Assembly (NCBI GenBank): GCA_014871385.1
Contig: CM026426.1
Span: forward strand, 108,844,457-108,908,456
Source of the DNA: Ceratodon purpureus
Taxonomy: Eukaryota; Streptophyta; Bryopsida; Pseudoditrichales; Ditrichaceae
Direction: 5' to 3'
Length of the DNA: 64,000 nucleotides
The notes beneath the pieces were generated by a model. It saw only the letters and a list, made by a program, of their open reading frames with translations. It made no database searches and was not told the DNA's origin. A program made the position numbers and the translations under genes. Shown here piece after piece: positions 1-33,000 of this stretch (positions are counted from its first letter, which is position 1; each line of letters opens with the position of its first letter).

Positions 1-3000
1 AGTCCTTGATATGGTGTGGAATGCAAACTGGTATGTGCTGTTCTCCTCATTTTGCTGCAGGAGTTGAATCTGAGCTCGCATCATTAGCCCCTCCTTCCTA
101 CGGTTCTCCCCAGCATCTGTAATCGATCTACGATTTACACGCTTTCCACATCGCCGAAGAGGTCTCTTCGTTGGGTCATGATCTGACTGAGGAAGGTATC
201 TAGGATTCTCTAACTGGCTTCCGGAGTTGGGGTTCCCTATAACCTCCGGAGTTGATGATGTGCTTACCAGTATGAAACCTGCGGCACCTAATGCTGACGC
301 CTCTGCATCAGTTAACTTCGTACCTGATTCAACTGGCCAGATATTCGGTAGTCTAGGTGGCTTTCCACCTTTTAGAAGCTGGACGTGGTCACAACTGACG
401 CACCCTGTTACCGAGGATGCGCAAAACCAAAAGTTCTGGAAACTCTTTTTGTATCGTACCTCACTGCACCCGTAAAAACATGGTGCTGCATATGAAATAT
501 CAATATCCGGCTTTATGCTTCGACCACATGTATCCCATCGTCCATTCCGAAGCACCACTGCAGCGCACCTTGGATTCTCATGTGGTAAACACCTTCGAAT
601 CGCCCAAAGTTTGTGATCTGTCTCTTTTTCGACTACCATTAAACCGTACTGCATAGCATACGAAAATCCATTATCAAAGGTAGGACTTGTGATGCCCATG
701 GAAGGACCGGGGGTTCCCATAACATCTCCAAAATGAGACCCTCTCATATGATTCCCGAGGATATTGTCACCCCGAGGATAAACCGAGCCATGCCACCCCG
801 GAGATTGCATTGCTGCGAGTCCAGGGTTATATGAGTTCGTTGGGACGCCATCTGAAACCATTTCCTCACTTCCTCTCCAGCAAGGTGGCCTCATAGAATT
901 TGCTCCTGGATTTGAAGTTGTCGCATAGTTTGCACCATGGTCTTGAGTCCCAGTGTTTTCCCAGCGCCGGGGTGTCCCTGGGTTGGCCATTGAACCGATT
1001 GTACGTCTCAATTCAAACCTTGGCGATGGCGACACGATAGTCTCGGGCCGAAATGGAACTCCATTGTACAGCTGCTTTGATGATGGTTCTAGAGAGCTTG
1101 TCCTAACAAGTCCGTTTAGATAACCTCCTTGGGTCTGACTCGGAAGGTCGTGGTGCGGTGTTCGAAAGGGCTCCTGGTTCCCCAAGGTATTCAATCTTGG
1201 AGTTGGCATTGGAGGGCGTCTTCCATTGGTGCCGTTAAATATCCTTGGATCAGACATGCACTCCGATCGGGCCCCCCCCCTCCGGTGCTGTTCCGAGGAA
1301 TATAACATGCTGGATGGCGCCGGCGCCATCTAGTAAGGGCCGGGTTGGTGATTTCCGTGTTGAAAGGTTTGTGGACGATGGTCTGCGCTGGCCCCCGGCG
1401 CTGTTCCCAATGCCGAAGTTGAGTAATTACTCAGATTAATATCGTGAGGATTCTGCAGATGAGTTGGCGCCGGCGCCGCAGCTCCCCCAGGTGGAGCAGA
1501 TTTACGATGGTAGGAGATGTCGGGATAGGGCTGGGTGGATGCTGCCTGCGCCATTGCCGGAGGCGACTGTGTGTACATGCTTGGATAGGAAATGTTCGGA
1601 TTGGGACAACGGGATGGCGCCGGCGCCATTCGATGAGTAGTATCGGTATGCGTGAATGATGGTGCACAATCCCTGGCAGCCCTTAATGGGGATACGTGAG
1701 GGAGTTGTCCAGGATCTGCTTCACCATAATTTACATCATCTGGGACGGTCAAAGGAAAGGTCGGATCGGATAGCGACAGAGGCGGTCTTCTCTGTAAAGT
1801 ACACCTACGTCCACGACTTGGTCCTGGGACCACTGTGCTTGTATTTGGACTTAGCTGAAATCTGAGTGGCTTCCTAATTGTGCGGCTGTCCTTGTCAGGT
1901 CTGTGAGATCGGGCAACTCTTTGCTTTCCAGCTTTCGTACTGAACCTAACGCTCTGCGTCCTGTCCATTTCGCCCTCCAATCCCAAGCCTCTCGAGTGAA
2001 AAGGAGTTCCCTCAACGGCTGTCTTCACAGCTGCTGCTACTCGCTCCGGTCTGTGAGATCTTGCTAGTGTTCTAAGAATTAAATCTGCCTTGGATGGGCC
2101 AGAGCCACGTACCTCACCCTTTGATGCTGCTGAACAGAACTGCTGTTGTAGCAGCGATCGGGTCATGTCCTCTGCACATACGGTGTATAGGTCCATTTTT
2201 ACTTTGAGTCCGCTGGCAGAGGTTGCCCACATTGAACTATGTACCGGTTCGCACAAATTCGTGTTTGGGACAAGTGCCTTTCTTTCAAGGTCTAGGTCAA
2301 GCTCGTTTAGATGGTGATATGCAAAGAGCGTGCGTCTTGCCATCCACCATGTCATCCACCCCTGCATGTGCTTTACGTTGTCTTTGTGAACCGCACCTGA
2401 GGTCGCCCACCAATTCTGGAGGTCGATAGCTATCTCTAGAAATTCCTGATTAGTCGGAGCTAGAGCCCATCGCTTGCACTTCTCAGCATGATGGGTCCTG
2501 TACTGATCTATAACCCACTTGTTAGTATGATCTCGGATACTTTGAACAAAGTGGAAGTAGCATGTCCGTAAGATTGGATCGTTTGGATTGGAGAGAACCG
2601 CCTCCTCGTGCAATTCCGAACCGAAGCCCTCTGCTGATCCATACACTGATTTCACAGCGTTATAGTTTGCTGGTGCTGCATCTGCCATAAACTCTTTGAA
2701 CTTCGGTTTTGCTTGGCCACTCCTAATAACCGTTTCGTTTAGAAGCTCCCAAAACTTTATCTGGTTTTCAGTATTTTCCAGCTTCATTTCGCAAACTGCA
2801 ATTGTCAATAATCTACCTAAGTTATGATCGTACACGTGAGCGGCCATTGTAGTCCAGTGATGAACTCTCTTGATATGATCGAACATTATGAAGCTGTCTT
2901 TCAAGTCTCCGGTGGTCAAGCGCTTCACTAAAGCAACACCGCTGCCAGTGCCCACCGTGGACATTTTAAACACAAACTTGACTCCGGTGTGTGATTGGCC

Positions 3001-3632
3001 AGGAAAATGACTATCTTGAATATAACTGTACCGTGAGTATTTCTTCAACGCGAATATGCACCGCTCCTGATCGGACCTGAACTTTGTTACCACGTACTTT
3101 ACCCTGCCTTTGTCGTGGTATGGTGGAGCATTCTCCAAAAGATCCATAAGCTGCTCCTCAGATAGTATCTCCTGATCCTGAACAGAAGTTGACTGCATAA
3201 TCAAATCTAGAAAGTTCCGGTGTGCACATCGGAACCCCACCCAACCAGGAGCATTCATGAGCCAAGGCTGGTCATCAAGGAACCGGTGGATCGTATCAGT
3301 CATGTTCGCATACGCAACCCGACTTCTCCCCGGAGGAGATGGATGGTTATGCGTACCCGCGTGGACAACAGCACGTGTGTACCTATTCGAATCGTGGTTA
3401 ACAACCCAGAGAATACTAGGGCACTCGCTAAGACAAGTCGGTGTCCATCTACAGAATGAGCACCTCCAATCCCCGTCTTGTGGAGCTTCCCCAGCCTTTG
3501 GCCTCGTTTGACAGCGCCCTTCCCAATACAGTGTGTTGGCCTCGCCATGGATGTCGATGTCGTTCTTCGCTGAGATTCTTGCAACTTCTACGATTGACCG
3601 AATGTGTCCATTGTATTCTCCGGATGTGTCTT
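1..3632 (-). CDS. E1 MULE-type transposase, partial, with one in-frame stop and a long C-terminal tail
   Basis: The frame runs leftward from about 3,632 and is still open at base 1. Near the N-terminus is a WRKY-GCM1/FLYWCH-like zinc finger: a C-x2-C pair (WRCSFCRW), a second C-x4-C pair and an HNH (about 3,330-3,460). Upstream is YNGHI...YWEGRC. The catalytic core follows: a first Asp near MFDHIKRVHHWTT, a second in FMADAAPANYNAV, the C-x2-H of CYFHFVQSIRDH, and a candidate Glu in NLCEPVHSSM. This spacing fits the MULE DDE fold. A TAG at 1,330-1,332 breaks the frame, but about 440 more codons stay open in the same frame. They contain a Cys-rich segment (C..C...C-x3-C...C-x6-C-x2-C, about 380-560). 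The E1 palindrome is read as MAPAPS or AAPAPT three times in the tail. No clear start codon was found, so an upstream exon is likely. Confidence 0.7.
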
Positions 3633-5466
3633 CCTAGCGGGGTTGTTGTGTGTCACAAGCAAATTACAGATTTGTTGCGTCGACTTGAATAAGGGTCATC
3701 GCTGCGTCCAGCCATTACTGTAGGGGCCTTGAATATAGGTGTAAATTTTATTTCGCATCTTGTGACTTGCATCTTAAGTTTTATTTCGCATCTTATGTGT
3801 GTGAGGTTATGGTGCGTGAGGTTATGGTGCTTGAGGATACCGCATATGTTGCCGGCGCGTATAGATATGTTTCGAATGACAGGTGGTCTTCACACTGAGC
3901 TTTCCAATCTGTATGCATAGTCTACTATGTGATATTGCTTGTGATTTGTAGTTAAAATGTGAGACCGATTCGGCCAATCATCTGTATTTAATTTCTGAGT
4001 CGTTTCTGCTCTGACTATGATTCTTGTTAGTTCTCACATCCTTCGACATATTCGTATTAAGTCGGGTCTTTTCAGAAAATCTCTGCAGAGTACTATGAAA
4101 TAGGGTATGTTCTCAGAGCAGACTGGATTTGATTGTTCTTGACGCCTATCGCCAGCTGACTTCGAAATTCATTAAATCTAGTTAAATGAGGGTTATCTCA
4201 CAGTCCAGCCAATGAGTTAACTTGTTTTCGAATGCACCGACTTCCTTGATAACTTCTTTGGCGACCTGATGGATTTTTTCTCGCGAGAGGTTAGAGCATA
4301 TGGTGCCGGCGCCAGTAGATATGAATTTAAGGGCGGATGCGAAAATTGGAATGTGGTATACCTTGTTCGGCCCATGCTTTGTAATCGAGACGTTTCTGCT
4401 TCGTCTATTTTCCTTGCTCTTGGGTCGTTGCTCTTGGGTCGTTTGCGGTTTTTGTTCCATATGAACTGGATTGGGGCATCTTCTTGTGGCTGCTGCGCAG
4501 CAGAAGTAATATTAGAGATTTTTATCAACGGATTGAAATACAGTCATTGTAGACTCGAGCCAGAGCTTTTGACGTAACGCAATTGATATTATACTGCCAA
4601 ATGATGTGACCAGAATGATTTCGTTTTGAATCATCATGGATTACGTCCTGTTTTGGATTCGGATTTGTCTTCCTACCAACATACATCTCTATGAAGAGTC
4701 TTTCAGAGTTTGGTTGGTCATGATACTGATATAAGTGAATGGAGAATTGAGAAGCGGCATGAGTGCTCGCAATCTGAAAATCAGAGCATCTGGGACCGGC
4801 GCCAGTTGCTTACTCTTCCACGACAAATGGCAAAGACTCGGAAATCTGTCAACCGTAAACTAACTTCGCCATTTCGGTATTGTTTTGTGGGTCATATGGA
4901 GCAGGCGCCATCTGTTCCAGGGAATTTACAGTTCCATTAGTTTCCTGCTAGGTTTGGGGTGTGGTCTTTTGTATTTCATATCTAACGTGTTTGTTAATAT
5001 TTATCTCATCGATCCAATTATTTGAGTGGCGTGAAACAGGGCATATGGATCTGGCGCCATTTGAATTGTGCATGAAGTTATTATTCGGTGACGGTTTGGT
5101 TTTGTATCGATGTTTGCAATGCTGGCGCCAAGTGCACCCCGGGATTTTGGTTGCTAAGGGTTCTTGTGGAACTACCGGATATTAACGTTATATAATTCCA
5201 ATGTAAATATAGGACGTTTTTTAGTCCGAGCGCAGGATTTTGTTTTGTTGTACTAATTCATTTATAGAGCTTGGTTTGGTAAGCTTAATGCGTCGGGTCT
5301 GTGTCTGTAAATGTGTTCAAGGAACTAGTTTTATGACTAATTAATCTTTGATGTTATTAAACCGCAATTGAGAGTTCAGCCAATTCAGTTTTCATTGAAT
5401 TCCAGCAATTTTCTGATGTCATTGATTTTTAATGGTTGCCTCATTGGTATTTGAACGAACTTGCAG
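3633..5466. promoter_or_regulatory. E1 divergent intergenic region
   Basis: This spacer lies between the leftward transposase and the rightward ParB-like gene, so it should hold both promoters and first exons. It contains about six full or half copies of the E1 palindrome (3.85, 4.30, 4.79, 4.90, 5.05 and 5.12 kb), the densest non-coding cluster. A direct repeat with AGGTTATGGTGC is near 3,805-3,830. I see no convincing conserved reading frame; the short open frames here have no recognisable domain. Confidence 0.5.
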
Positions 5467-8400
5467 AACACGCACCCTGGATTCACTGCCGAATCCGGCG
5501 AAGGCGAAAGCGAACCTGATCACGAGGATGATGCTAATGAGGTTGCTATCGACAGAACTTTGAACCCCAATCCGACAGTGACCTCATTTGAGCAATTTCA
5601 AGAGAGTTTGTTTAACCAGGTTAACATCAACAAGCACTTGGCGAGTCACAAGCTTAAACCCTTGAGCCTGGAAATTCCCCTTTGTCGACTTATGCCTACT
5701 ACGTGGGTTTGGCAAGCCTTACCAACTGATGTTCAGACTGTATACGATGGATTTGACATTGGAAATTGGGGGACTAATTTCTGGGTTACATGTTGTGGGG
5801 GACCCGGATTATATCCTCGTGAAGGTTTCGAAGATATCCAGCGATGGTCAGATATGTCAGAGGAATTCGACGTTGAGCTTAGAACAAAGTGTTTGAGCGA
5901 TCCCGAGCATGCGGATGTGTATGAAGCAATGATTGGCCGATATGTTCACGTATGGGATGGCAACCATCGGGCAATAGCTTGGATGCGACATATCCAGGAT
6001 CACAACAGTGATCCAATCAAAGTGAATTGTTTCGTTTTGAAAGAGGAAGAGTCTGACAGAGGCTGGATTTCCAACTTCATGCGGGATATCAATGAGTAAG
6101 CCCCTCAAATCTTGAGTCAAGTGCGTGAGAAAGATAGGAGACTGTAATTTCTGTTTTGCATCCCTTTCCGTTCATTGCTGATCATTGTTTTGTATTGGTC
6201 GGTTTTGTATGGGTAAATATTTTTCAGTCCAACTGTTTAGGATGGTCTGTTTCCTTCTTGGCCAGGACCGGGATAGGTAGGAGTTGAATTGGCCCCCGAA
6301 CCGTAGCTTCTCCATTATGCTAATTTCTCGGTGTTGCGTGTCACCACAGTGGAACTACGAACACGACTGTGAAAAAACAACTTGCGCATACTCTTTTTGA
6401 GGTCATGCAGATAGCGAAACGAGACCCTAAGGAATACGAACCTTACTTTACTGAGGTAGAGATCAATCGAATCAAAGACGTTTGCAAAGGACGGTGGTAT
6501 AACATGACTTGTGATGCAGTCACCGAAGTCTATTTCAAGGTGCCCCGTTCTAACCTTTGTATATCATTCCGTTTTAAATAACCTCAACCCGAAGTTGGAC
6601 CAATTCTCTCAATTGAATAATTTGTGACTGTATGCCTAGCTTTAGAAATTGGTATGATTCATATGTTTGATTGTAGGGGACATTGAATGCGGCGCATGTA
6701 TCGAAGTCGATGACCATATTTTACTTAGAGTTTGGAATATCTGAGTTTCGGAATTATTAATCATTTGAATTATCTGAGTTATGGAACGTGTTTGAACTGT
6801 GCAAGCACTAACGCTGGAATTTGCCATTGGACAGCGTGAAATCCTTGTCGCCGAACGTGAAGCTGTCAAAGCATTAAAGGACAAGCATCCGCTTCCCACT
6901 GGTATGATGATTGAGGAAGCGAAACATTCTGCAGCTCAGTTGATCAGAAAAGAGAAGACCGAACACATGAAGAAAATATTTCGGTTGTGCAATCCGAAGT
7001 ACCACCCCCACCTGATTGACGAGCTCGATATTCACTCCCGAACGAATTCTCGAAAGATTGGGGCTATGACAGTGGATAATCTGGGGATTCTTGTTGGGGT
7101 TCAAGGGGTGGATATAACGAGAGTGCTGAAGTTATGGAATAGTACAAGCGAAGAGAAGCTTAAGTATCACTTCCCCGACCTCGACTTTACAAGGGCTGCG
7201 TTTCAGAAATGGCTGAATCGCCGCGCTTGGTGGGAGCAGGTTATCCACATTCTCACCCCAATAGCATTTGCAAATACTAGGTTTCTTGTCTTTTTCCCCT
7301 CGAGTGGCCATAGCTTGTGGTCTTTATTTCAGAAAATTATATTTGATTTATTGTAGACCTGTGTTACAATTGCCTATACGCTGCTTAGTTCTCCACTACA
7401 ACTTTCACTGACATAGTAGTTTATTTCGAAACAGATGGGTACGAGGGCCTTGGAGTTGACCCTTGAGTTGGCTGGAAAATCGAAAGGTGAGAAGGGCATC
7501 GGAATTTTGCGGGCTGAAGTGGTGAAGCCATTGTTCGATGAGTACTTTGACCGCGTGATGGTGTTTGGGTTCGAGAAGTATTTCCCGGAAATCTTCTCTG
7601 GGGATTGTGGACCGGTGAGGCATAAAGCCTAGAAGGATCAGACGAATTATCACCAAGGGGAGATGGCGGTTCGTCGTTTCATAATGAGATTTGTCAGGTG
7701 GGTCTTTGAAGCTCACAGCCTCATTCCTAAAGAAGATGGCGACATAAGCAAGTTTCCAATTTTCGCAGACTGGCTCTTGACAAAGCCCAGCGTGTTCGCC
7801 GCTATACACGAAAGTCCGCCACATCTCAAGTACCTCGGATGGTACATTGAGAGTATTGGTGAGGAGCGGTACTTCCTTGATTCAAAGGACAGGGAGATTT
7901 ACGAAAGAGTAGAAAGGGAGATAGAAGCCGTGAGATCTGCCCCGCTCTGCGAGAAGGCTAAGGCGCTGGATGCGACATTTGATGCAACCCTCGAGAGGAT
8001 GACGAATATGATCGGAACGGCTAATTTGGAAGGAGATCGAAATGGAGGAGCTGAAACGGTAGATGGCACTGCCTGTCGACTATCTTCTACACTTCTTTCT
8101 GCCTTATCCGGTTCGTTGGAAACTGTTTACGTTCCGAGAGACGAGTCTGAAATTGCTACTAACAGTGCGCTGGACACTCATTACGGACCAATATTGTTTA
8201 CTGAGCTGCAGGTCCTTTTTGGTGCCAAAGCTGCTGCAAAAGCTGGATTGGAGACTCCTCTCAAGGAAACGAATCAAGAGCAGTCGAATGCTATCATTTC
8301 GGATATTCTCCAACAGGTCGAGTCGATCAATGGAAATAGTCATGCCGATGAGGATTGCACCCTTACCGGTGCCACCGAAGGCAAGCAGCGTTCATCCTCT

Positions 8401-10519
8401 CCCCATGGGATGGAGTTGCGACCAAGAATTGTCAAGTCAGCTCAGGCCTCTGAAGGAGATGCCATTCCATCGAACCCTCTTTCCCTTGCCATGGTCCCGA
8501 AGAAGTCGTCTTCGAGGTCTTTGAAGAAACCTGCCAAACCCGGCCCCGAAGTATCTCAACTGAAGTTCTCTGCTCTGCCCATTGAAGGCGTTGCTGGGAC
8601 TGTGAAACTAACAATGAACATCGCATTTGAGAGCCTCTTAGAAGGGATCGACCGTTCGGTGTTCGCAACCTTTCTTGCCGCAATCAAGCAGGTTAGTTCG
8701 CAATCTTTTTTCTCTCTCTTGATATGTCACTTTCAGACTCAACTGTTCTTCAGTTCGTATGAAGTACTCCTCGCCTTATGTCTTGGCGACTGGCGCCAGC
8801 GCCGTTTGACGTTTTATTTCGGATGACTCTTTGTTCTTTTGTTGATGTATCCTGGATTGTGAGATTAGATCATTTCCTGATCAGTACACTATTGCGAACT
8901 TTACTGTTTATTGATTCATTTCGCAGAACCCAGCAATGGTTACTTAGAGTACGGGTTATGATATTTCCTGGGGACTTATTCAATCATAGTGCTGTTTATT
9001 CTACTGGTTGCGGTTCCGTTGTATGAATTCAGCTCGATATTCTATCCAGGTCCTCCTGACTGTCCTCTCATCTGATTGATGCCGGCGCAATATGCTGCTC
9101 GAGCTGTTACCATCTCGTCCTCGTAACATATGGTCTTAGCCGGGCCTTGGCAGTCGGTTTATTAGCTAGGAACTAATTGAGCATGTCAGGATGTCCTTGT
9201 TATTTTTTATTTCCCATGGGCTATCTTTTTGCTGATTTCGAACTGGTATTGGTAGAGATGGACCTTTTCACGCCGGCCCCAGATGGACTACTCTTGTAGA
9301 TCCAACTTTGCTTGTTGTTCATACTTGACATTGATCGGAACTATGGACTTGTTGCGAGACAACTATGTTTGCAGGGTCCAAGCACCATATGTTCATTTAT
9401 TTTTTTAAGTTCTGATCGAGTCTACGCTGTTGGCGCCGGCGCGATGTGTCCAACCTATGCTCATCTTATTATGCATGGCTCATGTGACAGATTAATGGTG
9501 GGAGGCTTCGGCAGCATGGTAAGGTCGCAAGCAGAAATTGCGTTGACCTCATCATCTGTGACACACCAGACAACAGCCCCATTCCCGGATATGACAACGG
9601 GGCACTCCCGCATGAATCGAAGACTCCCGCTTGGAATATGGTGAAGAAAACAACATTTCCAGCTATATTTCACATCGCGGATGCCGTCTTAGCGGACTCG
9701 GGTGTTATACTTCTATTTGTTCCTGCTGAGGAGCAGCCTCTGCTTACGACGGGGACTTGGAATAATGAATGGGAGTGTTTAAGGACGTTCTACGTCGTGA
9801 ACCACAGACCGTTTTTTCCTACATGAGTAATGTCTTCTTACTTTTTGCCCGCAAGTTTTCTGATGTTATCAATCCATAGCTAGTTTACATATTCTGAAGT
9901 ATACTAATAGCCCGATCAATCCTACTCTACAGAAGCGACTTTTCAAAGCAAAAGTATATCGGCGAAGGTGTATGAGCCAGGTGAATTTCCGTTTCCAAGA
10001 GATCGCTAGCAAGGTTATGGACTGGAGTGCCGAGTCATCGGATGTGCTCGAGAATGTTGTTACTGACGACAACTTGCTCAGATGTAAGGAGACGAATTCG
10101 TATCGCGGTTCCAAACAAAAGGCTCCGGCATTCATGGAAACCATGATAGAGATCTGCACCGGAAAGGGGAGCGCCGTCCTGGACCTGACCGCGGCTGTGG
10201 GTAAGCTGACTGCATTTCTTAAAGTAGTACTTTAGTAACATTACGGTTTGGACGAGACCTAATCTACCATTTGTTCTGCACAGGTTCATCGGTGCAGGCA
10301 TGTGAGCTTAGTGGCCGTCACATTCTTGCACTTGAGGAGGACACAACCGCTTTTAACATGTTTCTATCGGACAACGCGATCGAGCCTAGCGCTGACATTG
10401 GTACGGAGGATAATCGGATTCTTTCGCTGCAACAGCACTTACACGACCTCGACGGGACGTACTCAACCGCAAATGTCCAGTCTGCGTTAAGTGGCAATTC
10501 GCTTGGCATGGCTAGCTAA
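5467..10519 (+). CDS. E1 ParB/Srx-like plus permuted DNA-methyltransferase-like protein, decayed
   Basis: Exons supported by splice sites and phase are 5,467-6,095, 6,350-6,539, about 6,805-7,239, 7,435-8,691, 9,491-9,826, 9,933-10,200 and 10,284-10,519. The joins around 6.54-6.80 kb are unresolved, and a 5' exon is missing because the first exon follows an acceptor without an ATG. Exon 1 holds a ParB/sulfiredoxin-like signature, VWDGNHRAIAWMRHI. The last three exons look like a beta-class (permuted) DNA methyltransferase. A motif IV region, VDLIICDTPDNSP, comes first and is followed by VLADSGVILLFV. Then come KAPAFMETMIEICTGKGS and VLDLTAAVGSSVQA, the family's motif I and AdoMet loop, and finally HILALEED. 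ParB-methylase fusions are known from bacteria and phages. The catalytic D/N/S-PP-Y/F reads DTPD here, so methylation activity is doubtful; it may only bind DNA. In-frame stops are TAG at 7,630 and TGA at 9,824. Confidence 0.65.
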
Positions 10520-10742
10520 TCTATGCATCTCATGTTCAGAATAGTGGCTGCAAAACGTCAGCCACATGTATTGCATATAGTCTTAGCATCGACACAGAAG
10601 GATAATGTTAGCCACCATTTATGTTTGTTACTACTACTGTAATAACATATTATTCTTACTACCCTCGCATGCTTATGTCACTACTACATCCTTTGTCGAT
10701 GTCTAAGGTTTTCCATCACCGCTCACGGCATCACTCCTCATA

Positions 10743-11318
10743 TTACTCACTGTCGCTCACTATATCTTCCCAGAACTTGGAAATCATCTCGAAGTCTTTG
10801 AATGCTGTACCTGAACTTCCGCCTTCCTCGTTTGTTGCTTCCACCGCGTCGATAGCCAAATCCTCATAGCGATACCCCGGATATCGTTCGTTGCTGATGG
10901 ATGGAAGACTCGCCCCCTGTGCAGATTGCATGTCACGGTTTCGGGGAGACATGGATATAATTGCACTGAGCTCTGAGTGCCATACACAGCTGCAGTCTGC
11001 ACATTGTTCACTCGATATGAATTACTAGTATACAAGACTCGAGATCTAGTTTAAGCAATGTGCGGCCAAGCATTGGGCCAATCTACGTCGTACATTGCGT
11101 GGGTCTAGTTCAAGCGATAGACAATGGCAATGTCACAAACCGAGAAAAATCGAAGGAGACGGGTCAAGCAAACAGTAGCATCCCCCGGCGTTCAGCGTAC
11201 CTGGGAGCCCATGTTCCGGCGATTGTCTCCTCCTCGCGCTGAGTGTAGTAGCCCACCGTGACCCACGGCGCATCCTACGTCTTGAGGCTTTCCTCGCTCT
11301 ACGCCTCTTTGGTGCCAT
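10743..11318 (-). CDS. E1 small basic/acidic protein, unrecognised
   Basis: A likely first exon at 11,318-11,201 starts MAPKRRRARKASRRRMRRGS, which is strongly basic and could be a nuclear-localisation or DNA-binding tail. It ends at a CAG|GTACGC donor. A later exon ends with a TAA near 10,743; it encodes YPGYRYEDLAIDAVE and FKDFEMISKFWEDIVSDSE, an acidic C-terminus. The join between the two was not resolved. I recognise no family. Its position between the ParB-methyltransferase-like gene and the right side of E1 suggests an accessory gene of the element. Confidence 0.35.
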
Positions 11319-12999
11319 TCTCGATAGCAAGCTGTGAAAGAGTCAGTCGAGATCTCAAGCTTCAGGCTGTCATCATCTCCACAAGGTTGTATTGTATGAT
11401 AATCCCCGGTGTGAGTGTTCACTCACATTAGATCAGTGAGTGTTTACTCATTGTGGGCATGATGCGCTGCATTGCATCCCCCGCACGAGTCCCTAGGTTA
11501 CAAATGGCCACAATCTTGGAGGCGCCAATTTGGAACACAATTGTAATCGTTCATGGGGACTTGTGTTTTCGCCATAATGAATAAAGATTCGTACATCTGA
11601 AATTGAGATTTTATGGTTTTCATTGATTCCCTCCTCCCTGGATGTAAGGGTTGAATTACTGGCATTTTGGTGTGCAAATATACGCGTCCTATCCTTTCCT
11701 TGACGGGCCGAGGCTTCCAATGTTGATCTCAGGATTGTTTAGGATGATAATTCTAGTGCTATTAATCTTATTGTTGTCATCCGGGTTAGAACTGGTAGAG
11801 ACCTGGCAAATATTGTTGATTTCACCAATGGTTGATTTATCTGTATTATAGTCTTGGAATTTAGAATCCCTAGTTCATATATCGTTAATTTTTAGGTGCA
11901 TGTTGCTGGTTGTCAGTTTCGACATGGCCCTTACTTGTTTGTGGTATCTGACGTTGCAGAATTTCTACCTGCTTCTGTTTGTCAAGTGGCGCTGGCGCCA
12001 TTATGCTTTGTTTCTTAATGTCATTAAGTTCTTTGTGAGTTTGATATTACGGTCATTATGATTCACTTGTGAAGGACGATTTTAGCTAGATACTTGTTCG
12101 AGCTCTTCGTTTAATCATGTACTTCAGGGTATTGAACCCTTCATTTGGTGGGCTGATTTGATTCCAGCACAAACATTAGTCGTTTGGCGCCCGCGCCAGG
12201 TGAGTATTGATATCCAATCGAAGGTTCTGTTCTTTGAACTCGGAGGTACCGTTATTACTCAAGGCGTGTTTCAGAAATCGCCCAATTTTGGCACATGCTT
12301 CTTGTAATCTGTAGTCAAATTGTGGTGTTATTGAGTTATGATCTTTGGCTTCTGTGATGGTGTGGATCCGATACACATTATTGGTCATCTTCTGGTCGAT
12401 TTGTTTATTAATCGCCGAAGCTATATGGTCAGAGCTTATTCATCAATCCGAGCAACGAAAGAGCTACCCAATGTAGCAGTGGCCCCTTATTCGTAAGCTT
12501 CCGTCGTTTCTCTGACTCTGGTGTACCTCAATGGTTCTGCATGGGCTCTGTTATACGGGATCCAGTATGAAATACTGGATGATAGTATTGAATACGGGGT
12601 ACAGTAGTTTATACTGGATGATGTATTCGTAGTCAATTATCAGTTCGTGCACTTCTGTCGTATGGTATTGGTACATGCTCAGGGTGCGGATGTCTCGTTT
12701 ATCTCCTGATGAAAGCTGGTTCTCGTCGCCAACCACTGGTGGTCCCGGTTTCTTATCTGATTTTTTTCTGTCAGTTGTCAGGCTCGCTCACACCCTAAAC
12801 GACCCACTCCGAAAAGCTGTCCTCGAGAAACTGGCTGCTGCAGTAATGACTTGTGTAACAGTAGTTGGAGACTGGGGGCTCTAGAATAATTCGAGACTGT
12901 CTGGTTCAGTCCTGCGCTGCTCTCTTGACCTGTGTCAAATTCCAAAATCTTTTCTACAAAAGCTCCTCTTTTTTTCTTACGTGTTCCTGTGTTGTGCAG
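11319..12999. other. Right part of E1 and photolyase intron, no gene found
   Basis: I see no supported exon here. Two good copies of the E1 palindrome (11,987 and 12,185) show that the element reaches at least 12.2 kb. A small inverted repeat based on ATCCAGTAT is at 12,558-12,622. The remainder up to 13,000 should be intron of the photolyase gene, but no upstream photolyase exon is visible. The E1 terminus lies somewhere in this stretch. Confidence 0.5.
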
Positions 13000-14592: not shown

Positions 14593-15173
14593 CATTAGGT
14601 TTAGCGCAGGGAGCTCTACCGTTTCGTTGTTTCGCACCGATAATGAATAGGGTTTGTGGCCAACTCAATCACATTATCCGGAAATTTATTGTATGTAATG
14701 ATGGTTGCTTAGTTGTAATTGACACCTTGTATCTCATAAGTCGTAGTAATTGTGCAATGAAGGTGAGGCGAGCGAGGACTTGACAGTTCGTGGTTTAGAG
14801 TTACGATGGCCTATTTAAGATACGATGGCGCAGACGACTACAATATGAAGGGGGTTACGTGATGAGCAGAATGCGGGTAAGTATACGAATCCTCTCTGTC
14901 TTCTCTTTGGTTGATAGGAATTTTATCAGTGATGGGGATTGAGACACGCTCTCGCAAGAAAAGGCGCTCTCTACACACTGTTGGGCCTGTGACGCCGCGT
15001 AACACCAGAGTGTTTTTCTGGAGTATTCCGAGGTTCTACAACGGATACTGTTTTCTCGGCCCTTTTCGATTCCAAAATTGCAAATGTTTATTTGCATTGC
15101 TTCTGTCGCTTTCTTTCAAATTATTCTATTCTGTGAACCACATCAATGAGCATTTTGTGTCAATGTTTTTCCA

Positions 15174-24068: not shown

Positions 24069-27000
24069 CTAGGCTGCACTGAAGTTACTCAAATTCTGGA
24101 ATTCCTCGTCTGCCATAACTCCGTAATACTGCTCTAACACCCACGCTGTATTGACATCTCTCACAGCAGATCGATCGCTTAACAGTTCTTCGTCCTTCGT
24201 TGGAGAAGCGTCCGAGACTCCAGCTTCACCGAATGTCTTCCTTCGCATATCACGGGAACACGTCGGTCTCCTTCGCCGCCTTCCCATAGCGCGGCAATGT
24301 CGGCTTCCACGAGGAGTCCTGCAACATTCTAAAGTTCCCGTCTGTACCATGCGTCGCGTGTACATGACGTAGAGTAGGGTTGCCACTCCTAACCATACAA
24401 CCCACTCGGGTAGTTCAAAGCAGAAGACGAAACCCGCCCTAAACATTGCGAAGACAATCTCGAGATGACGGAAACTAACAAATACTTGTGAACTGTGAAA
24501 GACCAACCGAGCAATATACAACGGTACACAGAATATGGAACCCTTGGGGAGGTCCACTTTAATGACGATGTCATACTGACTTGTCGAAGAAGATTCCCCT
24601 ACGGAAACACTATTCCATGACGCCGTTGAAATATTAAAGACGCCGTGACGCTGGATTGAACGACCTCTCAAGGAAGTCCTTGTTCCGACGTAGCTCGAAC
24701 CCTGACCATCATCTACAACCTGTAACACTGGTGACTCAGCAAGCGGATGGAGAGAACCATATTTAATCTCGGCCTTTAACTTCCGAAGACGACCCAATGT
24801 TCGATTCAACTCAGCTATTAGATGCTTTATCATTACGGAATCACCGTCTACTTCCTCATGTAATTCAATCACCTGAAGTCGCAAGGTTTCAGCGGGGTCC
24901 TCATCTTTCCTCCTTTGTGAAGTGGGTCTTGCTGCAGAGAAAGGTGTGTTTGACTCTGACGTAGGTGGCATTTGAACCTTGTGAGGCGTAAGTAGCTGAT
25001 GCAGTCCTCCTGTGACACTACCGGCTAACCTCCCGCAAAACCTTGCAATTGTCCCTTCCGCAACATCCGGGTTCATCATCATAACCACTTTGACATGGTG
25101 TTTACACATGTTCCCACGCTGCGCCCATACGCAGTTACAGACTGCCCATTCTGAACCCGGATTATGGACAGTGTAACGAAGATGGCGATGCTCAGTTGAT
25201 GTCACAAGCGCAGTGTCACCATCATTTTCTGGCAGTGTCACATCTTTGTCCGGAATTTTCCTGGCTCGCAGGATGGATGAGACCACGATATCCTGACCTT
25301 TCTTATTGTCCACGAAGCCCTTCTCTTTACGCAGATCCTTGTACCAGTAATGATCTACAACGTCTTCCGTTAGGGCCGTTATGCACCAATCAACCCTCCT
25401 ACTTGTCATTCTACTTCTCTCAGACTTGAGTATGGACTTTGCGAAGCCGTGGTAATCCTCTATGGCCGCATTGGTGTCTTGTCCACAGTATGATAAATTT
25501 CGAAATCCAACTACCCACATGTGCACCTTATCAAGCCATTGGAATTTCATATATTCCCAGAATTCCACTTCCTTCTAATACTTCTTTTCCAAGTCTAGAA
25601 TTGTATTCTCAGCCCATTCCCTACCTTCTGGTCCAGGTGGAGCGCTCCTATCATACATCAACATACCGAGTTCCTTCATTATGACGGCTCTCATCTTCAA
25701 ATCTGAAATCTTGTAACATGCATTTTTCTGCCACGCTCTACGTACATGCCATAGGCATAAAAATATCTCTGTCTTCGGCCATGTTTTACTGCACGCACAT
25801 AATAATAAACTTGATGGCGTTAGGACACATTCCCGGTAAGACAATCAGTCATGACTGATAAAGTGGAATAAACTGTATGAGAGGAATAACACGTACTTGA
25901 TGGCGTTGATTTCGCCTTGCGCACAGTCTACAATGAAGGCTGCTAGTTTCCAGTCTGGTTTTGTCTCCACCATCTTCGCGTTCAATGCGGCCATCCACGG
26001 AGTTAAATCAGCTTCAGCACATCTAGAGGTGAGAATGAATGCAACTGGAATTCCGTTATGCCACCTGTCAAAAACCATTAGCGTGTACAATGGGAACTGC
26101 ACAGACACAGTACATTCGAGAAGCACAGTTAGGTCAATTCTGGTCAGTGTCACAATGTCACGTCAGAAATGTAAAAAATAAATCGAACTAAAGAGATACC
26201 AAATCCGCGAAGTACCTTCTTCTCATTAGTGCCGAATGTTGCGTCAACCGAAATACTGGGAAAGTTAGCATGTGAGCGGAGAGCGGAGAGCAGAGAGCAG
26301 AGAATGGAGAGCAGAGATTTGACATTTAGCCAAATTTTTAAAAGCAAAGTAAACCCTATAACCGTGGAAAAAAACTAAAAAAGGTATGATTTTTTTACTT
26401 TTTTTAGTAAAGGAGTATATTTCCGTGGAATTCAGAGTTATGTCTGGTAAAAACTTTTTTACGTTTTATTTTTGAGTACAAATTAGGGCTGATGTCATGA
26501 TGACGTCATCCATACAATCCTTTAGATTTGGTCCCTTATTGAATCTAGATACGAGTATTCCAGCGTCATGTTCGTAGATCTCAATATTAAATATTGAATA
26601 GGAAAGTATAGGAAAAAATATATCACAAAAGCTAAAGTTTATGGTCTGAAACCTTCGTGGAATATATCAAAGTTCGTGTACAATAATCGAGCTGCGAAAA
26701 CCAAGATGTATACCATGTCAGAGTGCTTGTTTTGGTTGAAGAATTCTCGGTCTTTAGATAGGACCATTTGTACCTTTAATGTGAAGGAACGATCTATATA
26801 AACCATTGGGACGTCCTTGAAGTTGTATTAGCTCAATGGTTTCTGTAGAACTAAAGCTTGTACTTGCTAGGGAGTTGTTTGAAGGTATGGGCGATTCATT
26901 TGAGGTCGTTGCCTGTGAAACGATTTTACACGATTTGCTTAAGCGGATGGCGGATGGGCCTAACCTGTGGGATCATATAGGTAGTAGTGCAACGCAGGGT

Positions 27001-30000
27001 TGGACTCCTCCGACAGTAATCACGTTTAAAGACGTCGAGAACGCTCGTGCTGTGTCGAAGAGGTGGAAGCGTGAGATTGACAGCAGTCCTGAATACGCAT
27101 GCCTTCGGCTAGCGAGGTGGGATTACTTTTTGTACGAGGGTCGCCATTGGAGTCCGAAGGACGAATATGAAGTTAATCGGTTCAACATGAAGTGGAGTGT
27201 TTTTAGGAGTTCTTGGAAACTTGCAACTCCAATTTACAACGAGAGGTTAGAGACAACGTCCTTTGGAGAACTTAGTTGCGTTGAGTTAGATCAATTGAGG
27301 ACATTGCTATGGGCCAATGGGAATGAGGTCTTGGATGTGCTGGAACAACGGATCATACCATTCGAATGATGTGTACAGCCTTGTTCCATTCGCGATCGCC
27401 ACCACCGTCTTCAAGTTCCTTGTGTCGGGATAGAACCGAATCCACAGAGGAGTTGATGACAGAAACCTGAGAGGAATTTAGAGTACCAGCAGAAGAGGTA
27501 GTCTGCGGGAATTTCTTGGTTTTCCTCTGCTCGAGGAGACCTCTGGTGATCTCGGAAGCACTGATCGAGGAAGGAGCCGGCGAAGAAGTTGAAGAAGGCT
27601 TCGTAACGACATTGCCAGGAGAGGGCTTTGGTGCCTGTTGCCCTGGCGCGGAAGACTCCGCACCGGTTTGCTGTGATGCCTCTGACTGAGAACGGAGAGA
27701 TTTCAGTCGCCTTCCTCTTCCTCTCTTCGGTGGAGGAGCAGAAGATTGATCCTCCTGTCCTTCGTCTTTGGTTGCACCATCCATGGAGGCTTCGACTACC
27801 ACCTCACCCCCATTGTGTAGCATCTTGACGTCCGCCTCCGAGTCAATAGTGAAACCACGAATACAATCAAGATACCAGCATCCAGCATCCAAGTGAGCAC
27901 CTTTGTACCTTTTTATCTGCTGGGGAGAGTACATACACTGGTCCGAGGTTGTCTGCGTCCAAAGCTTGAAATACTTGGGGAGGTGTTGAACGCTGATGGC
28001 CCCCTTCAATAGAAACTCACGCTTGAAGTACCTATGGGAAGACATATAGAAAAGGTAAGTATAAAAAACAATCGCAATGAAAATTATGAAATGGAAACGC
28101 AATTAAGTTACTTCACGTACCGGTAAGTAACCCGCTTGACAACTTGAGCGGTTCCAGGGAATTTTGCGAAGTTGGACTTCTTGTCGAAGTGCTTCTCAGC
28201 CTTTTTTCCAATGAACGTAGGGAAGGCCTTGTCCCACAACAGAATACGTGAACTCTCGACAAAATCGCCTGGCTGTTGGACATCAGGAAATGCCATCCAA
28301 TTGATATCGAGGTTCTCCGTTTTGAATATGTCCTCGACTTCGTGGATGACGGCTTCCTCCAACTGTAATACAAAATTCATATAAGTAGCAACGAAGAAGG
28401 AATACGGTAAAATAATAAAGGAACAAGGAATTGGAAAGGATTTTTTATGAAAATTACCCTAGCCCAGAATGAAGCTTTGTTCAACCATGGGTCGAATTCG
28501 GTGTCTTTGAATTCAGATGGCAGAAATCTGTAAGACGTTTGAGCACTCGGGGATGAGTTCCACCACTTCAACCAACGAGCCTTGTATTTGGCCTCAACGG
28601 CCGCTGGAACAGTCCTCTGAAGCTTATCGATTGACATCTCAGGCTTATTGTTGAGACTGAAATGGCGATTGATCTGCAAGAAGCACCAAAGTTTTAAAAA
28701 TGATTAATACAGAAATTATTGAAGTCATACGAAACAGTGAATTGAACAATGATCAGTGAGTCACCTCATTGAGGAAGTCGTCACCATTCTTGGGATTTGC
28801 GACAGCCAAGTACTTGGTAAAGTCCTTCTTCTTGATGGCTTCGACCATTCTATCTAATGCCTCATTCATGACATCCCAAACTGCACATGCAGACTGGTCA
28901 TCCTCGGGTGTCTTGTTGCGGTAGGCCTTGGCTGCTTCATCGGAGGCCACAGCGAGTTCCCGCTATAGAAAGATAATTAAGCCTTAGGGAATTCCATGAA
29001 TATTGAATAATAAGAAACAAATAGAGAGAGGAGGTAGGACTTACTCGGTACAAAAATGCGATGAAAACTTTAGTTGTCAAGGGAAACCAGGAGGGATTAG
29101 GTGGCTTGTTCTTCAAACATGCGTCAAATTCTTCAGGACTGAGGAGGTCTTTAAATTCCTCCAGCTTCATCATTCGAATGAGCGGATTCGAAATAGTTTT
29201 GCGGGGAGATTACTCTTCACGTGGTCATTCTCAGTCGACCTGAAAATAAACCAAAATACGTATTATGAATAATAGAGATGAGATAGGCTAACAAATGAAA
29301 AAACAGGAAAAATGAAACAAGTACATACCAGTTGATGTCATGCATTGCGTGAAGAAGATTGCCAACATGGCCACGGGGGTCGAGTACTATGCAGTGCACA
29401 GATATGTGCCATGACGGGTCGTCTGCGTGGTGCTTGTTGATATGACGAAGCCATGCTGAGAGGCGATGGTTACCTTCCTAGACAAAAAACATCTTCCCCG
29501 AGAACTGCGACCACTCCTCGTCACTTTGAATCTCATATTCAAAAGCATCATTCGCGTCCCTCCATAATGGGCTCCATCTGGCCATGACCTCATCCGTAAC
29601 ATCTCTTGTCTGCTCTTCGTTGTTGTACATAGAGATGTACATGACGCGGTCTCCATCTCTATATCCCTTAACAAACTCCCGCTCCAAATGTTGTACCCCC
29701 ACTACGCCCACTAGTCTAACCTTGGCCATTGGGATCATTCTGCACAAGGGCACTAACATTCGGGACTTCTGCGATGGCTTGATCCTGAGCTTGTTGATGA
29801 CGGCTATAGAGTCCACCTTGTATTGGGTTCGATGTTGCAATTCCCCTTCCCTAGCAATCTTCAAGTTTATTGGACAAGATGGTTTCACCAACACATTTTG
29901 TGTTTGCGTAACCTGCGAGAAGGTGCGCAAATTAGAAGAACAAGCACAATTGAAGAAAGTCATGCAAAGAAGACAAGTATGTAAAAGAAAGTAACAATAT

Positions 30001-33000
30001 ATCTTCATACTGTCATCTCTCTTTTAACAACTCAATCATCATCCTGTGATTGATAAAACTATCTACGTGATGCACGACTATAGTACTCCTTAGACTGTCT
30101 ACAGTTCCAGTGACGGCGCCTCCTCCAAAATCGCCTGGTCTGTTGGACAGGGCACGGCAGAATTGCCGGAAGGGCAAAGACCACATGGGCTGGCCTCCTC
30201 ACTCTAATAGGCGAGGAAGGAGAGGGTGGAGACATCGGCGAGGAGCCCTGTGGAGGAGACGTGGGCATATAGCCCGGGGAGGTTGGCTCATACACCGGGG
30301 ATGTAGGCATGTCCACTGGAGAGGTAGGCATGTATTGTGGAGAGTGGACCTCGGAAGGTCCACTTTCCACACCCATAGGGTTGGTTACATCACAGGTACA
30401 GTAGTACTGATCAAATGAATCCGAAAGATCGGAAACATTGATAACAGAAATGGGGGAAGTGGCGGATAGCTCAAGAGCATCAGACGATACCTATAGTAGA
30501 AGATTTGAAGTGAGAATTAAATTCCACCTTTATAAGAGTAGCAAGCAAAGAATAGTACAAGTTTAACTCAATGTGAATTGTAAATTGAATGAAATACCTC
30601 GGTCTCTGCTGGCGTCGGGTCTTGACATTCGCTCCCCAAATGATCTCCATCAGATTCCTATTTCATAAACAAAGTAATAAGTATTAGAAAAAACAGTAAC
30701 TATGAATAACAAATAATTACATTAACTTAATCAAAAATATGAAGATTTTAATTAATATGTTGTGAGCGGAATTGATTTATATAACAGAAATGGTCAAAGA
30801 AAAAAAAAATTAAAAAACTTTACAAAAATCCCCAAATGGTCACCCATGCCCCCGGCCTATTGTCGGCAACGACAGTAGGCTTGGGGATTTTTTAATTTTT
30901 TAAAATAACAAAAAAAAACCAAATAATTACATTAACTTAATCAAAAATATGAAGATTTTAATTATTATTTTGTGAGCAGAATTGATTTATATAACAGAAA
31001 TTGTCAAAGAAAAAAAAATAAAAAAACATCGCAAAAATCCCCAAATTCATACCCATGCCCTCAGCCTACTGTCGTTGAGGACAGTAGGCTTCGGGTTTTT
31101 TTAATTTTCAAAATATTACAAAATAAATTAATAAAATGCGTAATCTTCATCAAAAAAGTTCAGATTTTTTAATATTTTGTGAGTTTACAATCACTTATAT
31201 AACACAAAATGTCAAAAAAAAAAATACAAAAACAAACATTGCAAAAATCCCCAAAGTCATACCCATGCCCTCGGTTAATGGCTGAAGATATGGCTAATGG
31301 CGAGTTTTAACGTCGGTTCAGTTGCGCGAATTCAATGACATTGTCTTGTTCCAAATCCTGGGGGACCGTTCAGTGCTATAGAACATGGAAGAGAAACACA
31401 CACAGTGGTTCAAAGACTCATTCTGAAACAATCATAAGATCATTTCAATATTTTCTACACATGCGATGTCTTCCTTAGTTTGTATTCAATAAGCAATCCT
31501 GATTTTTAACGTTTTATTTTCAATCTATAATGATGAGAGCGCCACCTCCATGAGCTCAAAGATATAGCATTGAATTTGACTTAAAATTCTCCAATCTCCC
31601 CCACTCTCTACAAACCATCAAATAAGATCGACAAGGCGTATACGGTATCCAATAGCAAGCATGCACTTCCATGCAGATTTTGCAAGTATATCATTTGTTG
31701 TTGCATCTCAAGGAACTGACGTTCCAAAGTCCGTCCTTTGGAATACATGACAAGCATTAAATGTGATGAAAATCTTTAGGCTAGTATCCAATTAATTCAG
31801 ACACAACGATACTTGGATCTCTATAGCCGTGACCAACACAAATACCGAGCATCTCATATGGATGCTTCCTTCCCGATAGATACTTTGAGTCTGTACATCA
31901 GATCAGTTAGAAGCTTAAAACGTGGATAACTTCCTTCTAAGATGTATCCTCTTAGTAGCTTACATTTGTTTGCTGTGGATTCTGCAATTGTCTTTGAGGT
32001 CAACTGAGAACAAGAAATTGTACCTGAATTAAATCTTTGTGATCTGCGCGTCAAGCGTATATGCATATACAATCTCACCATATCATTTACTAACACCTTA
32101 CATGTCATGTCTAAAATACTACTGCTGGAAGATATTCTTGTGAATGCCTCCGCATTTGTACATAATATGAACTCTTGTGAATGGTAATCTTGAATGTCAG
32201 TAGACGAATCACATCTGCAATTGATGAAGGTGCTTTCTGTAGAACTCTACTCCTTCAATATGCTTTGGCAGACTTGGCTTTGTAGCATATGAATGATTTC
32301 TGAAAAATCACTTCCTACATTTTTGTTGCAACACTTTGAATTTGTAGCTCCCAGCTATTACGAAGTTCCATCATATGAGCATTCAATTGTCTTTATACGC
32401 CCACCTGTAGAGCCCCAGCAAACTAAGGTATGCTCGCTTTTTCCAAAAGGATTGACTATTAAATGAATTTGAGTTGTATCTATTTACTAAAATTTTGATC
32501 TAAGTTGTGTGACCCGCTGATAATCAGACCATTCAGCAGCTGACAACATATAACATTTGAAAAGTACAAAAAATAATTGAAGAGAATACTGCCTTCCATC
32601 TACGGATCTCTGCCTGAAAATCACTGTGGAGTATCATATTCGAGGGACTCAACATCCAGAATTAAACAATGGGGTACATAGTAATATTATTTTTTAACAG
32701 TAGCATTCACTCTTAATGACAGAAGGTTGGCTGTGGCCCCAACATACCAGATGATTGGCGGCAAATTCTGAAATAAGAAGGAATAAGGCCTTGTTAAAGA
32801 AATCTTATGCTGCACAGTCAAAATTTTACACATGACAAAGGTTTTTTTTTTGGGGGGAGCAAATTAAGAAAATTCATTGCAAAAATAGATTATGACAAAG
32901 CTTTAACAATGTTACTTTAAATAAGAAAATTCCTTCTTCAAGCTCCTTAGGAGCTGCCCATTCAAAGAAAGGCTCTATCATTGATGTGAACTAAAATATG

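Follow-up and report, generated by a model that had tools for sequence, protein, structure and literature searches.

Introduction

Transposons that carry their own bacterial-type DNA-recognition and DNA-modifying proteins are described only briefly in the literature that we covered. The closest system is a transposon protein of Ectocarpus, presented in the accessible part of its report as a single chain of 1104 amino acids that combines a ParB-like domain with a methylase and is encoded on the strand opposite the transposase; its authors propose active methylation, with N4-methylcytosine (4mC) or N6-methyladenine (6mA) placed on the protein's own element (PMC12477816). Here we describe the remains of an accessory gene with a methylase-like domain in a 64,000-nucleotide stretch of the moss Ceratodon purpureus (assembly GCA_014871385.1, contig CM026426.1, positions 108,844,457 to 108,908,456 of the forward strand; hereafter, the window), where it lies in a putative Mutator-like element (MULE), E1, that occupies the beginning of the stretch. 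Genes of this kind are known, if barely described, from algal transposons, with green and red algal proteins reported besides the Ectocarpus one; new at this locus are the change in the catalytic site, the presence of a relative without methylase in a second element (E2) and a palindrome concentrated in the element that carries the gene.

Outside eukaryotic transposons, a survey of the ParB fold states that phages frequently fuse ParB folds to N6N4 methylases (PMC12704722). Element-specific binding is represented by the VANC proteins of Arabidopsis, which are reported to bind short motifs, clustered in the introns and other noncoding DNA of the VANDAL elements that encode them (PMC5735166), and to remove silencing (PMC5735166; PMC10398659). 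ParB is not mentioned in the accessible portion of the main text of a survey of eukaryotic adenine methylation (PMC12695648). No plant case of this kind of gene was seen in open-licence literature, a weak negative in that two primary algal papers fall outside that coverage.

Results

The E1 accessory gene lies on the plus strand (5467-10519) and was modelled as seven exons separated by GT-AG introns of matching phase, which amount to ~1,100 codons without the missing first exon (Table 1). An earlier interpretation of the same DNA made from its letters (the sequence-only reading) had presented the gene as a single spliced unit, and the stretches that it quoted, VWDGNHRAIAWMRHI, VDLIICDTPDNSP, KAPAFMETMIEICTGKGS and VLDLTAAVGSSVQA, are all present in the translation at the place and on the strand that it assigned to them. 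The frame itself is broken: TAG (7630-7632) interrupts exon 4, TGA (9824-9826) closes exon 5, and the table of open reading frames (ORFs) offers no usable start codon ahead of the motif region of exon 1, so that an upstream exon is missing from the gene model; no first exon was found upstream. Together with the missing start, the two in-frame stops make the E1 copy untranslatable as drawn. The spliced translation used 9829 as the end of exon 5, for which 9826 is the better choice because the ORF table places the stop directly before GTAATG. An intron spanning the TAG at 7630 was rejected by eye, for want of an acceptor that would keep the frame and at the same time give the intron a plausible length.

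The spliced last three exons match the Pfam family N6_N4_Mtase (PF01555) with an expectation value (E) of 1.2e-4 and 22.6 bits, below the gathering threshold of 26.7; the match covers profile positions 137-216 of 221 and residues 148-225 of the 279-residue query. The relationship to this family claimed by the sequence-only reading is thus seen at the level of E, short of the curated cut-off. The exon-6 ORF by itself gave E = 0.21; the score thus rose once exon 7 was joined to exon 6. All six families listed by PHROGs are methyltransferases (3.1e-5 to 0.13), and six of the seven listed by PADLOC are MTase_II (best 1.1e-5); like the Pfam result, these do not depend on the choice of phage matches described below. 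A tblastn search of phages returned 156 records at E ≤ 10, and among the best 20 of these, 19 are annotated as DNA methyltransferase and one is unannotated; these 19 come from Flavobacterium phages that are close relatives of one another, with 81% of the query aligned at E 1e-4 to 2e-4. Nine phage proteins were translated (another fetched record, its gene split, was excluded), of which seven entered the hidden Markov model (HMM) and hhalign comparisons (P0001 and P0004 omitted) and eight the motif alignment (P0004, a near-copy of P0003, omitted). These proteins were picked from E1's own matches, and the three comparisons are accordingly not independent of the tblastn search. Against the seven phage methylases hhalign gave a score of 82 (probability 97.5) over 73 columns round motif I, compared with 25 for the best of 60 shuffles. 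When the phage HMM was run on the six-frame ORFs of the window of at least 25 residues, exon 6 ranked first (E = 0.0021), exon 5 second (0.016) and exon 7 third (0.03), and the next ORF followed at 0.82.

Other searches with the methylase exons gave little: NCBIfam returned weak matches only, CcrM (0.084) among them; the PDB, searched by sequence, returned two (0.74 and 0.75), one named methyltransferase-like; Pfam also listed TNF at 0.07; and none of six stretches from viral contigs was confirmed. The motif-I half carries most of the score, so that the assignment of exons 6 and 7 to a methylase is firmer than that of exon 5, whose motif-IV half is supported by colinear phage alignments, by phrog_67 (residues 16-226, 0.0013) and by the rank of its ORF in the HMM scan. 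Given the splice model, motif IV precedes motif I in one chain, which is the permuted order of beta-class N4/N6 methylases that the sequence-only reading had noticed. Together with scores above chance, this order supports the identification of exons 5-7 as a permuted N4/N6 DNA-methylase-like domain.

The catalytic motifs of this domain are altered. In the alignment with eight phage proteins, VDLIICDTPDNS falls on motif IV and reads DTPD against D[L/I/P]PY, so that the aspartate and proline are kept and the aromatic residue is replaced; the departure from a DPPY-type site first noted in the letters is therefore borne out. LDLTAAVGSS falls on the MGSG/GGSG of the phage proteins, with AAVG against xGSG (one loop glycine lost, one remaining), and the acidic residue of motif II is kept. 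The E1 domain has neither a DPPY-type catalytic motif nor a glycine-rich loop for S-adenosylmethionine (AdoMet), and changes such as DTPD and AAVG are expected to abolish catalysis in this family.

A search of the window with the E1 protein, followed by gene modelling, showed that the N-terminal and middle part occurs a second time, in a diverged and decayed form (copy 2; Table 1). The two copies match at E = 3e-26 with 26% identity over 364 columns, PLCR, GNHR and AWxRHI being among the positions kept. Three of the six E1 introns (those after exons 1, 2 and 3) have a counterpart in copy 2 at the same place and in the same phase, as judged by eye; two further introns of copy 2 are absent from E1. 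Because copy 2 matches exons 1-4 and shares these introns with them, the comparison supports exons 1-4 of E1 as one real gene, and the single spliced gene proposed earlier stands over this part. Its extension across the exon 4-exon 5 join is seen in E1 only, where the phases match and exon 5 has no start codon before motif IV; a single-chain protein has also been published. The reading frame of copy 2 is interrupted by a TAG (29478-29480) and shifts within the second exon; no methylase exons belonging to this copy were detected when the phage-methylase HMM was applied to the six-frame ORFs of the window.

The N-terminal region contains VWDGNHR, encoded by exon 1, and a GxxR box, DGNHR or EGNHR, is found in both copies. 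GxxR constitutes the ParB box. A conserved arginine of ParB box II is named in the survey of the ParB fold (PMC12704722). The ParB label attached to this region by the sequence-only reading, with ParBc (PF02195) as the family to be matched, comes down to this one short motif, as no significant match to ParB was obtained by sequence, profile or fold. Pfam and NCBIfam returned no family for the N-terminal 273 residues, and PHROGs one family of unknown function (E = 0.025); for a 149-residue piece of E1, the sole PHROGs match at E ≤ 1 was a ParB-like partition protein, located at the motif (E = 0.42). A tblastn search of 50,697 phage records with the N-terminal region found no match. By sequence, the PDB returned two chains of the unrelated Minor Editosome-Associated TUTase (0.0058 and 0.0059), and four weak matches when searched with a profile of the two copies; Pfam listed only CAF1A_dimeriz (0.13) for the two copies, and no ParB, and PADLOC listed UzuA for copy 2 at 0.0087. 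None of 11 stretches from prokaryote genomes was confirmed, nor was any of the 224 that the two-copy alignment picked out in viral contigs. An HMM for ParB, made with domains taken from 75 prokaryote loci together with YbdM and some viral sequences, gave each copy a negative bit score and aligned best at the motif in both, and hhalign scores of 13.9 against the broad ParB set and 10.3 against a phage-only set were each beaten by at least 8 of 100 shuffles. Two low-confidence AlphaFold2 models were obtained (mean predicted local distance difference test scores (pLDDT) of 34.9 and 47.3), and none of the 164 Foldseek matches to the low-confidence pLDDT 47.3 model reached E ≤ 0.001. To judge from these sequence and profile comparisons, the assignment of the N-terminal region to ParB is unproven.

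E1 also contains a dispersed 14-bp palindrome (Table 1). When at least 11 of 14 matches are required, 15 sites fall in positions 1-12300 and a single one in the remaining 51.7 kb; a threshold of 12 leaves 10 sites, all of them in 1-12300, and a threshold of 10 gives 16 sites in 1-12300 and 12 elsewhere in the window, so that the clustering is limited to close matches. In 100 Markov controls of 1-12300, sites with at least 11 of 14 matches averaged 0.29 and never exceeded 2. Both the consensus and the 12.3-kb boundary were chosen after the sites had been seen; word enrichment without a preset motif also ranks the core of the palindrome first. Some of the sites fall within the transposase frame, others between genes or in the 799-nt intron of the accessory gene. 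The sequence-only reading had suggested that the accessory protein recognises this palindrome, an idea that gains from the strong clustering in E1 and is weakened by a larger neighbouring element (14212-38166): no gene of this kind was detected in the part of it that lies outside E2, yet it too has a dispersed motif, ARTGTCAC.

As a separate observation, the palindromes at 1315, 1465 and 1615 are perfect or near-perfect and follow one another in the transposase frame at intervals of exactly 150 bp, the first lying immediately beyond its TAG; the DNA between palindromes with this spacing is unrepeated (identity 0.46, 0.32 and 0.33).

Table 1. Features of the accessory genes, their elements and the dispersed palindrome (positions within the window).
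Feature	Position	Strand	Remarks
E1 exon 1, with DGNHR motif (ParB-like N-terminal region, unproven)	5467..6095	+	homologous to copy 2 29912-29329 (-)
E1 exon 2	6350..6539	+	flanking intron positions and phases common to copy 2 (by eye)
E1 exon 3, middle region	6835..7239	+	homologous to copy 2
E1 exon 4, middle region	7435..8691	+	in-frame TAG 7630-7632
E1 exon 5, motif IV-like VDLIICDTPD	9491..9826	+	TGA 9824-9826 is the last codon, GTAATG directly after
E1 exon 6, QKAPAFMETMIEICTGKGSAVLDLTAAV, start of motif I	9933..10200	+	splice model, Pfam
E1 exon 7, completing motif I, with motif II-like ILALEED before the stop	10284..10519	+	splice model, Pfam
Copy 2 of N-terminal and middle part, diverged and decayed	27353..29912	-	window search with E1 protein, then modelled
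Copy 2 exons	29912-29329, 29239-29045, 28962-28765, 28673-28458, 28362-28121, 28031-27353	-	gene model
14-bp palindrome TGGCGCCGGCGCCA, span	1021..12198	.	15 sites at ≥11/14 matches
Palindrome sites	1021, 1315, 1465, 1540, 1615, 4301, 4791, 4897, 5046, 8791, 9077, 9268, 9431, 11987, 12185		
E1 transposase-like ORF, 767 codons	1333..3633	-	MULE-like by motif resemblance only
E2, terminal-inverted-repeat element, 9,067 bp	26257..35323	.	carries copy 2; 10-bp target repeat ACCGAAATAC
Larger MULE-like element hosting E2	14212-38166	.	terminal repeats ~390 bp, 90% identity

The transposase frame of E1 meets a TAG at 1330-1332 and is then open to the window edge (1-1329). The ORF has no Pfam match at E ≤ 5, and hhalign aligned one D-containing stretch of it with the other MULE-like protein of the window (20.3, against 26.7 for the best of 40 shuffles). 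The left end of E1 is outside the window; its right end, which was not found within the window, probably falls at 12.2-14.2 kb, provided that the larger element is not an insertion into E1.

That larger element is flanked by the target repeat GTCTTTCCT, of 9 bp (10 counting a shared C), and holds 25 of the 29 ARTGTCAC copies in the window; searches with the E1 protein and the methylase HMM detected no ParB/methylase-type gene in it outside E2. Its plus-strand ORFs (15137-20145) include one that resembles an Ulp1-type protease by eye and has no match in Pfam. The terminal inverted repeats of E2 are 87% alike across 55 aligned columns, and the element interrupts an exon of a transposase gene that we take, from its motifs, to be MULE-like; joining the flanks restores the frame KHGHSGGISVDATFGTNEKK. 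The words enriched in E2 were either AT-rich or derived from its terminal repeats and from a tandem array; nothing like the palindrome cluster of E1 emerged. The array, of 210 bp, lies upstream of copy 2 (30710-31272), and its units contain an inverted repeat recognised by eye. Also upstream of copy 2, a minus-strand ORF (30490-30059) encodes four 7-residue units (YMPTSPV, DMPTSPV, YEPTSPG and YMPTSPP), which resemble the heptads of the RNA polymerase II tail, and a plus-strand ORF opposite the end of copy 2 (26821-27369) gives a weak F-box match below the cut-off (E = 0.033).

Discussion

We consider the chances about even that the E1 gene is a decayed transposon accessory gene whose product, with a ParB-like (unproven) N-terminus, a middle region of ~550 residues and a permuted methylase-like C-terminus, recognised its own element. 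The intact protein would have bound the DNA of that element, probably at the dispersed palindrome, and the methylase-like domain would have marked the element or, in view of DTPD at the DPPY-type site and AAVG in the AdoMet loop, served as a non-catalytic DNA- or AdoMet-binding module. The most likely benefit, by analogy with VANC, would be a sequence-specific escape from host silencing; self-recognition is the main functional claim here, and anti-silencing a weaker second step. The similarity between copies in two elements suggests that the gene was maintained for long before it decayed.

Several observations weigh against this interpretation. No search of the N-terminal region gave a significant ParB match, the motif-IV half of the methylase-like domain has weaker profile matches than the motif-I half, and copy 2, in which no methylase was detected, offers no comparison in favour of joining exon 4 to the methylase exons. 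As the E1 copy has stops, its altered catalytic residues may reflect decay instead of function. The element at 14212-38166 has its own dispersed motif without a detected accessory gene outside E2, and the transposase could equally be the protein that binds the palindrome in E1.

This last point leads to an explanation whose chances we put only a little short of even, namely that the palindrome has nothing to do with the accessory protein and serves as a structural site or as a binding site of the transposase: three copies are spaced at 150 bp within the transposase frame, one immediately beyond the TAG, and the neighbouring MULE-like element has a dispersed motif and no such gene detected outside E2, although copies inside an intron of the accessory gene and flanking it on either side recall the reported placement of VANC targets. 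It is also possible, if somewhat doubtful, that the N-terminal region is not related to ParB/Srx and that DGNHR arose by convergence in an unrelated DNA-binding or enzymatic domain. The failure of the broad ParB HMM, of hhalign and of Foldseek (on a low-confidence model) to give a significant match is consistent with this, whereas the motif sits in the densest block of conservation between the two copies, which are ~30% identical, the sole PHROGs match of the 149-residue piece is ParB-like and at the motif, even if at E = 0.42, and the accessible text on the Ectocarpus protein terms it ParB-like.

A division into two adjacent genes, one with the N-terminal and middle parts that ends at ~8691-8826 and a methylase-like one whose first exon falls in 8692-9490, appears unlikely. 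It would account for the failure to detect a methylase along with the N-terminal and middle part in copy 2, and for the palindromes in the 799-nt stretch between exons 4 and 5, which in this respect is like intergenic DNA; yet the phase-0 end of exon 4 (CAG/GTTAGT) fits a phase-0 acceptor before 9491, exon 5 lacks an in-frame ATG ahead of motif IV, and the Ectocarpus protein, in the part of its report available, is a single 1104-aa chain with both domains. That the intact protein was an active DNA methylase placing 4mC or 6mA on its own element, as the Ectocarpus authors propose for theirs in the text available (PMC12477816), agrees with the order of the motifs, the aspartate and proline of motif IV and the acidic residue of motif II, but is improbable in the face of DTPD against D[L/I/P]PY and AAVG against xGSG in the eight phage proteins and of two in-frame stops in the gene. 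We likewise give little chance to the idea that the gene is a passenger without a role, captured or degenerating: such a gene would be expected to show the in-frame stops seen in both copies and the frameshift of copy 2, whereas similarity over 364 columns at 26% identity between two elements points to long maintenance, and a similar gene is carried by an algal transposon according to the accessible part of the report.

The preferred interpretation, a decayed accessory gene for self-recognition, also admits a more far-reaching version, to which we attach a slim chance: some non-algal transposons would have recruited a bacterial-type ParB-like/methylase fusion whose catalytic site lapsed and which became a sequence-specific reader of a palindrome multiplied by the element through both introns and intergenic stretches, an independent anti-silencing system of the VANC kind with a methylase-less relative in a different element. 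An altered-site member, that relative and a palindrome concentrated in one element together provide a concrete protein-DNA pair for the question of how transposons recognise themselves and escape silencing.

In comparison with known systems, the E1 gene resembles the Ectocarpus one, as far as the latter is described in the text at hand, in its length of ~1,100 residues, in the order of domains seen by the sequence-only reading and in lying on the strand opposite the transposase, and differs from it in that the ParB label of E1 was not reproduced, the catalytic motif is altered and the gene has decayed; the likeness to the Ectocarpus Sola1 protein is one of layout and length and does not extend to an assignment of E1 to Sola1. 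The methylase half of the phage ParB-methylase fusions belongs to the same permuted class as the E1 domain. The fusion of Vibrio phage 1.213.O, a protein of 404 aa whose ParB motif reads AGHGR and whose motif IV reads DPPY, has neither the introns of E1 nor its middle region of ~550 residues. In the accessible account of VANC21 the motif is 9 bp long and repeated in tandem in the same orientation, whereas E1 has a dispersed 14-bp palindrome, some copies of which lie in a coding frame. As in the reported VANC systems, a transposon accessory protein is accompanied by an element-specific short motif repeated in noncoding parts that include introns, a likeness of workings.

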